A program made the translations under genes and the position numbers. The notes below the pieces were generated by a model. That model was given only the letters and a program-made list of their open reading frames with translations. It was not told the origin of the DNA and did not search any database. A stretch of DNA of 64,000 bases from Sphingobacterium kitahiroshimense (GTDB lineage Bacteria > Bacteroidota > Bacteroidia > Sphingobacteriales > Sphingobacteriaceae), in assembly GCF_025961315.1 (NCBI RefSeq), contig NZ_JAOQNK010000001.1:5518001-5582000 (forward strand), in the 5' to 3' direction. Numbering within the stretch: position 1 is the first letter of the stretch; the number at the start of each line of letters is the position of its first letter. Positions 204 through 5,031 of this stretch are shown here, in pieces.

Positions 204-1871
204 ATGAAAAAGCCGAGAAAATTTGGACTGTATACGACTGCTTTATTTTGCTTGTGGATGATTGCCCCATCTTATGGTCAAATTACTGAAAGGCCACGTC
301 CTAAAGAATGGGATCTACTTGTTGAAGGTGCTCGCTTTAAAGATCGTTTTCTACCTATGCCTAAAGGAAAAGTTATAACTGGAAGTGATTGGGGAGCGGA
401 GGGAGTGCGGAAACGATATATTGATAATGGAATTGAAGATGGTGAGCGATCGTACTGGGGCGGTAACATCTTAAAAGGCGACGATGGTAAGTTTCATCTT
501 TATGTATGTGGATGGCCTGAAAGTTCAGAGAAAGGACATATGGAATGGCCGAATTCAATTGTATACCATACGGTTAGTGATAATTCAATTGGACCATACA
601 AAATTGTTGATACTATAGGTAAAGGACATAATCCTGAAATTTTCAGAGCGAAAAATGGTAAGTATGTGATTTCTGTGATCAATGGTTACTACATATCTGA
701 TAGCTATAACGGCCCTTGGAAGTATGAGAAATTTGTATTTGATCAACGGGATCGTCCTATCATCGAAGGTTTGTCAAACCTAACCTTTGCAAAACGTGAG
801 GATGGCTCTAATTTGATGGTGTGCCGAGGTGGTGGTATCTGGTTTAGTGAAACAGGTTTAAGTCCTTATAATCAGATAACAGATAAACGTATATATCCAG
901 CTGTTGATGGAGAGTTCGAAGATCCAGTTGTTTGGCGCGATCATATTCAGTATTATCTTATTGTAAATGATTGGTTGGGACGAATTGCTTTTTATCAGCG
1001 TTCTAAAGATGGTGTAAATTGGATAACTGATCCAGGAGAAGCTTATACCACTGGTATATCTTTTCATCAGGATGGTGTAAAGGAAGATTGGTTTAAGTAT
1101 GAGCGCATTAAAGTGTTGCAGGATAAGTACGGTCGAGCTTATCAGGCTAACTTCGCCGTTATTGATGTTTTAAAGTTGGAAGATAAACCGAATGACCAAC
1201 ATAGTTCAAAAAATATTTCGATTCCATTGAACCCTGGAATGCTGATGGAAATGTTGAATACAGAACTACCATCTTTAAATACAAAATTTGTCCGTGTCAA
1301 AGTGTTAAAAGAGCCTAATTTTGATCCTGCTAAGGAATTGGATTTACAAACATTGCGATTTGGAAAATCAGAGCTTGTTAATTATGGAAAAGGGAGCCGT
1401 GCAACTAAAATAGAAAACACAAAAGATGGGGTTATCATTACATTTGAGAATAGTGGGCATGGGTTAACTCAAGATGAATTTGCTCCAAAATTAATTGGTA
1501 AGTCCAGGTCGGGAAAGCTTCTTTTTGGTTATACCAGAGTGCCTTGGGTGGCATATAACGAAGCGATTTTATCAGCTAGAAAGCCGATCGTGGATAAAAC
1601 AAAAGATCAGCAAGTTTTCGAAGTACAGGTGGATAATTTTGGGCTAGTGAAATCTAAGGAAAGTAAGTTAGAATTATATATTCTTGATGGTGAAAAGAAA
1701 ACTTTGATCGCTAGTGGACCGATAGCTCCACTTGATCCTTATGCCATGAGCAAAATTACATTAACAGGAATTATGCCATTAACAAAGGTGGCGAATAATC
1801 CAATGAAACTTGTTATTCACGAAAAAGGTGTTCAAAAGTCAACATTTAATTTTGATTTGAAACTTGATTAA
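204..1871 (+). CDS. Secreted beta-propeller glycoside hydrolase-like protein (GH43/GH117-type fold)
   Basis: A 555-residue protein with an N-terminal signal peptide (about residues 1-25, ending at SYG-Q), so it is exported. Residues about 80-330 show repeated blade-like units with W/Y-rich turns such as GKYVISVINGYY, GPWKYEKF and FEDPVVWRDHIQYYLIVND. This is the look of five-bladed beta-propeller glycosidases of the GH43/GH117 kind, and acidic residues in the propeller (FEDP, HNPE) could be catalytic. The C-terminal 200 residues look like all-beta accessory domains. It lies upstream of a GH2 gene and a SusC/SusD pair, so a role in trimming a surface-bound glycan is inferred. I cannot assign a CAZy family or substrate. 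The start is the ATG just before the hydrophobic segment; a terminator follows. Confidence 0.6.
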   Translation: MKKPRKFGLYTTALFCLWMIAPSYGQITERPRPKEWDLLVEGARFKDRFLPMPKGKVITGSDWGAEGVRKRYIDNGIEDGERSYWGGNILKGDDGKFHLYVCGWPESSEKGHMEWPNSIVYHTVSDNSIGPYKIVDTIGKGHNPEIFRAKNGKYVISVINGYYISDSYNGPWKYEKFVFDQRDRPIIEGLSNLTFAKREDGSNLMVCRGGGIWFSETGLSPYNQITDKRIYPAVDGEFEDPVVWRDHIQYYLIVNDWLGRIAFYQRSKDGVNWITDPGEAYTTGISFHQDGVKEDWFKYERIKVLQDKYGRAYQANFAVIDVLKLEDKPNDQHSSKNISIPLNPGMLMEMLNTELPSLNTKFVRVKVLKEPNFDPAKELDLQTLRFGKSELVNYGKGSRATKIENTKDGVIITFENSGHGLTQDEFAPKLIGKSRSGKLLFGYTRVPWVAYNEAILSARKPIVDKTKDQQVFEVQVDNFGLVKSKESKLELYILDGEKKTLIASGPIAPLDPYAMSKITLTGIMPLTKVANNPMKLVIHEKGVQKSTFNFDLKLD

Positions 1872-1890
1872 TCTTATTTTTTGATGTAGG

Positions 1891-1925
1891 AAATCCAGCA
1901 AGTATACATTTGCTGGATTTTTTAA
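1891..1925 (+). terminator. Rho-independent terminator after the propeller glycosidase
   Basis: Ten-base arms AATCCAGCAA and TTGCTGGATT around a short loop, followed by a T-rich run. It lies about 20 bases after the stop codon of the upstream gene and separates it from the GH2 gene. Confidence 0.8.
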
Positions 1926-2124
1926 TTTTTAGTGTATGTGGGTAAATTTTCAATAATTTATACTGAAAGAGATGTTGTATGTGATATTATGAGGTATTAT
2001 AGTTTAAGAAAGAGTTAGTTTAGTTGCAGAAAAGACGATTTTTATTATTCATTTTTGAAACGTACATGATCTGTAATCCGAGAGGGATTTTTTTATCATG
2101 AGTAAATATCTAAAATCTAAATAA

Positions 2125-5031
2125 ATGAAATCATTATAAGTCCTTTTCTTTGGATTTCTTTCCCCGCTTATATTATGGGCGCAAGATATTGTTGTTCCAA
2201 GATTAACGCCTTTTCCTGATCATATCCAATCTACAAAAATAGATTTGAATGGGAAATGGTTATTTGATGTTGATCCGAGCGAAAGTTTCTGGAAGTCTCC
2301 GCAAGCTGTAGATTGTAAGAATATACAGGTTCCGGGCGAATGGGTGATGCAAGGCTGTGAAGTAGAGAAAGGAGCTAAAGCGGGCTATTTTCGTCAATTT
2401 GAAATTCCTGTAAGTTGGAAAGGACAGCGCGTCAAGCTTAGAAGTAATGGGATCTTTAGTGAAAGTACAGTTTATATTAATGGTAAGAAAGTAGGAAGTC
2501 ATATAGGGGGATTTACTCCTTTTGAGATCGATGTGACAGATTTTGTTCACTATGGTGCTACTAACCAGATTACCATAGCTGTACGTAGCGAAAGTTTAGC
2601 TGATTCCTTAGCGAGCGCATCACGTTATGCTGTACATGCCCTTGGTGGTATAACTCGAGATATATTTTTGTTTGCGATCCCAGAGACAAATATTTCTTCT
2701 TTTCATGTGGTTACTGATTTTGATGCGACCTATACAGATGCGGTATTGTCTGCGGATGTACAGTTGTCCAATGAATCTATTAAAGCCAAAGGTACTCTTA
2801 AACTAGCATTTAGTTTGTTGGACACAGAGGGAAGATCCGTTGATTTAGGAAAGTCGGAATATCTAGTTGATGAGTTGAAAAATGGTATAAATTTAAATCG
2901 TAGTATAAAGTTTCAGATTCGTAAACCTCATCATTGGACATCTGAGTCTCCCTATTTGTACACGTTAATTTGTGAATTAAGTGATGGATCGGGTGTTTTA
3001 CATCGTACAAAGCGAAGAGTTGGTTTTAGAGAGCTTGAAGTAAGAGGAAACCAGTTTTTTGTTAATGGAAAACCGATCAAGTTAAGAGGGGTCAATAGAC
3101 ATGAAGTGATGCCACTGCGAGGAAGATCTTTGGAAGGTGATATTTGGGCTAAAGATGTTAAGTTGTTTAGAGAAGCCAATGTAAATTATATTCGTACATC
3201 GCATTATCCTCCTGATGAGAGATTGCTTGAGGCTTGTGACGAGCTTGGTATGTTTGTAGAGGTTGAGGCTCCATTTTGTTGGGCACATGAGACTGCTATT
3301 AAAAAAGAGGATATGTACCCTCTTCTGGTGAATCAACATATTGAGATGGTTAACCGGGACAGGAGTCATCCTTCTATTATTATGTGGTCTTTAGGAAATG
3401 AGTCTAATCTTTATAAAGAGTATTTTAAGGAAGCTGGTGAAGTTATTAAAAAGATGGATCCATCCCGTCCCCGCATATTCAGTCAATGGGGCCCGGATGC
3501 TGATAATGGCGAGCTTGAGGTGACGAACCATCATTATCCTGGTCCAACTGGTCCAGATATATATCGCAATAGTAAACGTCCGGTTACTTTTGACGAATAT
3601 ATCCATGTAAATTCTTACAATCGTTTTGAACTATCGGCAGATCCCGGTGTAAGAAATATGTGGGGACCGTTATTGGATAAAATGTGGACAGCTATGTACA
3701 ACAGTCAAGGTGTGCTTGGTGGCGCAATCTGGGCTGGAATAGATGATACCTTTTTCTTACCTAACAATAAGGTTGTCGGATATGGAACATGGGGTCCGTT
3801 GGATGGCTGGCGTCGGGCGAAACCCGAGTACTGGAATATGAAAAAGTCATATAGTCCAGTAAGACTTGAACAGCGTGGAAATTTATCAAATGACGGTGTC
3901 GTATCTTTTGATGTCGACAATCGTCATAATTTTACGGATCTGTCTGCTTGTCGATTTGAATGGCGCTCTGGTCAGGATAGTGGAGCTGTGCAAGTGAATT
4001 TACCTGCCAGAAGTAAAGGCCATTTTGATATCGATCTGAAGAATGAAAAACACTTGGATCAGGAAATTTATTTGAAAATAATTTCTCCTTTAGGTTTTGT
4101 AATAGATGAATATTTATATTCTCTGAAACCGGGGATAGCGGCCGCGGAGGTTGAAAAGAAAGGTTCTGTCAGTTTTGAAGAAAAAAATGAGGCTATCCTT
4201 GTTAAGGACAAGAACAAGGTGTTTAAAATCAATAAGTCTGATGGGCTTTTAAAAGTTTATGATGTCCATGGTAACAATTTGATCAATCAGGGTGCTACAT
4301 TAATGTTATTACCGCTCAACTCGGAAGGCAGGGGTATTCAAATGGTTGGTAAAGATCAAAATTTTGAACCATTTAACCCTGTTTGTGAGAACTGGGTATG
4401 TCAATCGGTGGTCTATAACACACAGAAAGATAGTTTAACTATACTTGTTAAGGGTACATACAAAGAAGCTGAAGGAGCATATATTTATGTGTTTAAAGCA
4501 AATGGCGTATTAACGGTTAGCTATGATTTTGAATTGAGAACTGCAGTATCACCAAGGCAGGTTGGATTGGTATTTGAAATACCTAAAGAATTTAATAATT
4601 TAGAATGGAAACGTCGTGGATATTGGAATATGTATCCGGAGGATCATCTCGGGTCATTGACTGGTCATGCTGTCGCTTTTAATCCTGATCTACCTGTTTC
4701 TGCTTCGGCGGGACCATCTGCCTTACCCCACTTAGGTTGGTCTTTTGATCAGACAGATGCAGGTTCGAACCTCTTTAGGGCAACGAAAGAAAATATTTAC
4801 TCAGCTGATTTGTCGAATTTAGATGGGAATAAGGTTAAGGTCTTAGGTAATGGAAAACAACATTTCAGAGCTTGGATAAGCACGGATAAAAATAGTATTA
4901 ATATGTTGGTCGCAGATTACAATAATGCTGAACGTGAAGGTTTTCTATCCTCTCATGCAGATGTTGACTATCGTCCCTTAAAAAGGGGGGACCGTGTAAC
5001 TGGTAAAGTAATGTTACGGTTTGAAAAATAA
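2125..5031 (+). pseudogene. GH2 beta-galactosidase-like gene with an in-frame TAA in the signal peptide
   Basis: The main open frame encodes a GH2 enzyme: sugar-binding jelly-roll (residues about 1-145 from the TTG at 2245), Ig-like domain, TIM barrel with the acid/base motif WSLGNES (Glu386) and a probable nucleophile in TFDEY (Glu451), then C-terminal beta domains of the LacZ type. The annotated-looking start is a TTG inside the jelly-roll. Reading upstream in the same frame gives ATG at 2125, four codons, a TAA at 2137-2139, then VLFFGFLSPLILWAQ and DIVVPRLTPFP, a normal signal peptide and mature N-terminus. The gene therefore seems to have lost one sense codon at position 5 to a nonsense mutation (AAA, CAA or TAT to TAA are one step away). 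If translated from the TTG the enzyme would lack export and about 40 residues. A sequencing error is an alternative. Confidence 0.75.

Follow-up and report, generated by a model that had tools for sequence, protein, structure and literature searches.

The window, a 64,000-nucleotide stretch of the Sphingobacterium kitahiroshimense genome (contig NZ_JAOQNK010000001.1, positions 5,518,001 to 5,582,000), contains near its left end a gene of glycoside hydrolase family 2 (GH2) with a stop codon in the stretch that encodes its signal peptide (Table 1). We found that the frame reads ATG (2125-2127), AAA TCA TTA, TAA and then GTC CTT TTC TTT GGA TTT CTT TCC CCG CTT ATA TTA TGG GCG CAA; the segment after the stop closes with L-W-A-Q and is followed by the mature protein, and the frame is uninterrupted until TAA at 5029-5031. 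On re-reading the window, the sequence-only reading of this region (ATG at 2125, three sense codons, TAA and a segment ending in WAQ) was correct, as were its coordinates. Its range had begun at the in-frame ATG at 2098, the start of an upstream mini-ORF that may encode a coupled leader peptide or have arisen by chance. The TAA of this mini-ORF was rejected as the lesion because the stretch is identical in Sphingobacterium sp. B16.

Table 1. Features at the GH2 locus (window positions).
Feature	Position	Strand	Remarks
Intrinsic-terminator-like hairpin and T-run	1887..1930	+	Separates the GH2 gene from the upstream 555-aa gene; strong, -19.9 kcal/mol when 1884-1930 is folded
Tentative, weak match to a Bacteroidota-type promoter, TTG-N23-CATTTTTG	2024..2057	+	Pattern match; identical in B16
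Upstream mini-ORF MSKYLKSK	2098..2124	+	8 codons; TAA 2122-2124 abuts ATG 2125; identical in B16
GH2 glycoside hydrolase gene, interrupted at codon 5	2125..5031	+	968 codons counting the stop as sense; intact 968-aa orthologue in B16
Signal-peptide coding stretch MKSL*VLFFGFLSPLILWAQ	2125..2184	+	Uninterrupted MKSLLVLFFGFLSPLIIWPQ in B16
In-frame TAA, codon 5	2137..2139	+	Sphingobacterium sp. B16 has TTA (Leu); one base differs, T/A at 2138
Longest ORF left with an ATG/GTG/TTG start	2245..5031	+	TTG start, 928 aa, without signal peptide; first residue at the border of the sugar-binding domain
Presumed acid/base glutamate GAG, GNES motif, codon 426	3400..3402	+	Alignment with GNEA/CEY of 6s6z and 3dec
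Presumed nucleophile glutamate GAA, FDEY, codon 491	3595..3597	+	Alignment with GNEA/CEY of 6s6z and 3dec

The protein matches three Pfam profiles above their gathering cut-offs, the GH2 N-terminal sugar-binding domain (PF02837, 65.0 bits), the Ig-like middle domain (PF00703, 59.2 bits) and the TIM-barrel (PF02836, 133.5 bits). It also carries the two glutamates whose catalytic roles we assume from what is known of GH2 and LacZ, so that domains and catalytic residues both place it in GH2. The gene had been called a GH2 beta-galactosidase, a label that holds at family level: every NCBIfam beta-galactosidase equivalog cut-off was missed by far (best NF052611, 302.8 bits versus 999). The gene resembles the LacZ-type GH2 beta-galactosidases (PDB 3dec, 3bga, 6s6z; NF052611) in domain order and in the alignment of its Glu motifs (GNES, DEY) but differs from them in score. 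We found no literature on this GH2 gene.

The 3' neighbour of the GH2 gene is an AraC-type regulator on the opposite strand, followed by a gene that is SusC-like by eye. Since the next gene lies on the opposite strand, the stop should have no polar effect, and the best reading is that the GH2 gene ends its transcription unit within a polysaccharide-utilisation region. The immediate upstream neighbour encodes a secreted-looking 555-aa protein (window 204-1871) for which no Pfam or NCBIfam profile matched at E 0.001; it may represent a glycosidase-type family not yet described. Upstream of the GH2 gene there are three more GH2 genes, a GH95-like gene, a galactonate dehydratase (above its NCBIfam cut-off), an HpaI-type aldolase, an SDR dehydrogenase and an SMP-30 lactonase; from this content, we infer that the region may serve the use of a galactose-containing glycan. 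An aldonate-catabolism cluster lies between GH2 genes (G000:C1:5499978-5509357, G000 being the source genome) and comprises the galactonate dehydratase, SDR, SMP-30 lactonase, HpaI aldolase and a sugar transporter, which suggests that galactose or a related sugar is used oxidatively.

Of 93 genomes in the genus, one besides the source, Sphingobacterium sp. B16, belongs to the same species, and its GH2 orthologue is 97% identical in protein. The B16 allele (NZ_JAAUVN010000002.1) reads ATG AAA TCA TTA TTA GTC, with Leu at the position of the TAA; position 2138 is A in the window and T in B16, the sole base that differs in codon 5. The DNA of the two strains is near-identical from the terminator through the GH2 start, mini-ORF included. 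The B16 orthologue sits at the same locus, has the same start codon and upstream mini-ORF and is equally long, but differs from the window gene by Leu5 TTA in place of TAA and by 32 further amino acids. Since the nearest genome carries an intact allele with TTA at the same codon, the TAA signal is more than chance; an in-frame stop opposite a sense codon in a close orthologue, here TAA versus TTA, is what marks a nonsense pseudogene.

The more distant homologues (32-48% identity, from genus and family searches) gave the same picture. All 24 of the 24 homologues compared, orthologues and paralogues together, have an uninterrupted signal peptide ahead of the first domain, and at 45-48% the orthologues have diverged too far to show the ancestral state of single codons beyond this frame argument. 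A true start after the stop in relatives, which the sequence-only reading had named as contrary evidence, was found in none of the compared homologues.

Aligned with its B16 allele, the window gene is gapless over 968 codons, of which 87 differ (54 synonymously), and has no further stop or frameshift, which bears out the earlier description of the rest of the frame as intact. The pairwise NG86 estimates are dN 0.0155 and dS 0.097 (ratio 0.16), with similar dN/dS in the first third and the remainder of the gene. Among pairs of neighbouring genes that carry ten or more differences, this ratio ranks 54 of 67 (median 0.094; 90th percentile 0.20), within the range of intact neighbours, which would fit either a recent lesion or a function that has been kept; pairwise dN/dS mostly reflects the time before the lesion and does not separate recent loss from retained function. 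With no second lesion and a dN/dS like that of intact genes, the earlier view that the lesion is recent is the best supported.

No in-frame start after the stop keeps the signal peptide, among the ATA, ATT, ATC, TTG, GTG and ATG codons checked, and starts in other frames were rejected, every one being short. The TTG at 2245 (codon 41) is indeed the first in-frame ATG, GTG or TTG that remains; it is not the only one, as had been claimed, with GTG 2344 and ATG 2347 coming later, and it sits at the edge of the first domain rather than inside it (Glyco_hydro_2_N aligned from residue 1 of the protein begun at this TTG, at profile position 4). Initiation in Bacteroidota relies on upstream adenines and low structure, not on Shine-Dalgarno pairing (PMC6847099), so a missing Shine-Dalgarno sequence at any start proves nothing. 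We surveyed tRNAs at 89 places found by RF00005, using ARAGORN on members that represent the score classes, and found no suppressor tRNA (anticodon TTA, CTA or TCA) among the 33 anticodons read in the source genome.

We consider it probable that a strain-specific substitution has turned Leu codon 5, in the signal-peptide part of a secreted GH2 glycosidase gene, from TTA into the ochre stop TAA, with the exported enzyme lost or reduced to traces. Ribosomes initiating at ATG 2125 would release a four-residue peptide, as expected from UAA at codon 5 and the lack of any tRNA found to read UAA. The downstream starts would all give a product without a signal peptide, so that the exported enzyme, and presumably its activity, would be lacking or at trace level, and the frame after the stop would be intact because the substitution is recent. 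Of the three options offered before (a disabled exported enzyme, readthrough or a sequencing error), the first is the best supported, given the B16 sense codon behind the same ATG and the same 27 upstream bases and the lack of a later start in relatives; the point against it is a pairwise dN/dS that is that of a functional gene. In-frame stops in bacteria are described as persisting for the most part only briefly, on a time scale like that of polymorphism within populations (Belinky et al. 2021, PMC7918605), a description that the GH2 stop would fit. The case is like other bacterial nonsense pseudogenes and in-frame stop polymorphisms (PMC7918605): one base has changed, pairwise dN/dS is low, a close relative keeps a sense codon and the gene belongs to carbohydrate metabolism. 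Nothing special sets it apart, the stop being at codon 5, within the signal peptide.

We compared ORFs in both directions between one 1.1-Mb contig of B16 (about one sixth of the genome) and G000:C1:4540001-5740000. Among 628 shared ORFs, clear internal single-base nonsense was found in about 5 genes of the source genome versus 0 in B16 (two-sided binomial p of about 0.06), at codons 5 of 968 (GH2), 82 of 180, 376 of 447, 65 of 379 and 1531 of 1965. Further stops in the source genome were at 542 of 547, close to the C-terminus, and at 5 of 354, maybe a start-site effect, along with a few split frames; B16 had two or three frameshifts among the shared ORFs. By these counts, the GH2 stop is part of a background in which roughly one gene in a hundred is disrupted. 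The asymmetry in nonsense hints either that the source genome carries more young, unpurged substitutions (mutation load) or that it contains some consensus errors. Across the 292 shared genes that have diverged least (107,540 codons), 184 codons differ with N/S 0.69, which would cap sequence errors at the order of 2 per 10 kb at most and still allow one at 2138. A generally faulty assembly was not seen in the 628 ORFs compared in both directions.

The main rival, a base-calling or consensus error at 2138 in a strain that truly has an intact codon, we judge unlikely. It draws on clear nonsense being confined to the source genome, as expected of a sequence with a slight excess of errors or a mutation load. 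Set against this, the source genome is a 6.29-Mb single contig of completeness 99.99, its N/S is far under the 2.5-3 or so that we estimate for random errors, and the difference at 2138 is a substitution outside any homopolymer.

Could the gene still function, with some full-length exported enzyme made by UAA readthrough at codon 5? The dN/dS of 0.16 agrees with this, as does the argument of Belinky et al. 2021 (PMC7918605) that dN/dS stays below 1 in many bacterial genes with an in-frame stop, but the same work finds such stops mostly short-lived, no suppressor tRNA was found, and with a sense codon in B16 the stop does not qualify as a conserved signal for recoding. Neither mark of programmed readthrough or recoding, a conserved stop or a suppressor tRNA, is present, and the signal peptides of the homologues are intact. 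Since readthrough in reporters of other bacteria was 0.08% (UGA) and 0.01% (UAG), values that cover these two stop codons and not UAA (PMC9481147), substantial readthrough is unlikely, and we hold this account to be very improbable. A restart at TTG 2245 after the four-codon peptide would give a cytoplasmic GH2 protein that lacks its signal peptide together with some 20 residues of the mature part; its ORF keeps every catalytic residue and almost the whole of Glyco_hydro_2_N, but TTG is a weak start codon 35 codons beyond the stop, no homologue starts there, and the product would be in the wrong compartment, leaving the exported function unrestored, which makes this very unlikely. Similarly improbable is that the codon-5 stop is a tolerated polymorphism that lowers expression, with readthrough or the (cytoplasmic) restart keeping the gene under selection.

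The GH2 stop is most likely ordinary strain-level gene decay and not exceptional, and the gene should not be annotated as a cytoplasmic 928-aa enzyme from the TTG. Two near-identical Sphingobacterium strains thus differ in the usable enzymes of one polysaccharide-utilisation region, B16 having one of its frameshifts in another GH2-like gene of this area. That B16 gene (G004:C22, about 832941-835740) has a one-base deletion in an A-run that breaks the frame near codon 680, and its 932-aa orthologue in the source genome (G000:C1:5474823-5477621) is intact. About 4.5 kb beyond the right end of the window, a segment of about 61 kb (G000:C1:5586548-5647536) has no alignment longer than 1.5 kb in the collinear B16 contig and is likely a strain-specific insertion.
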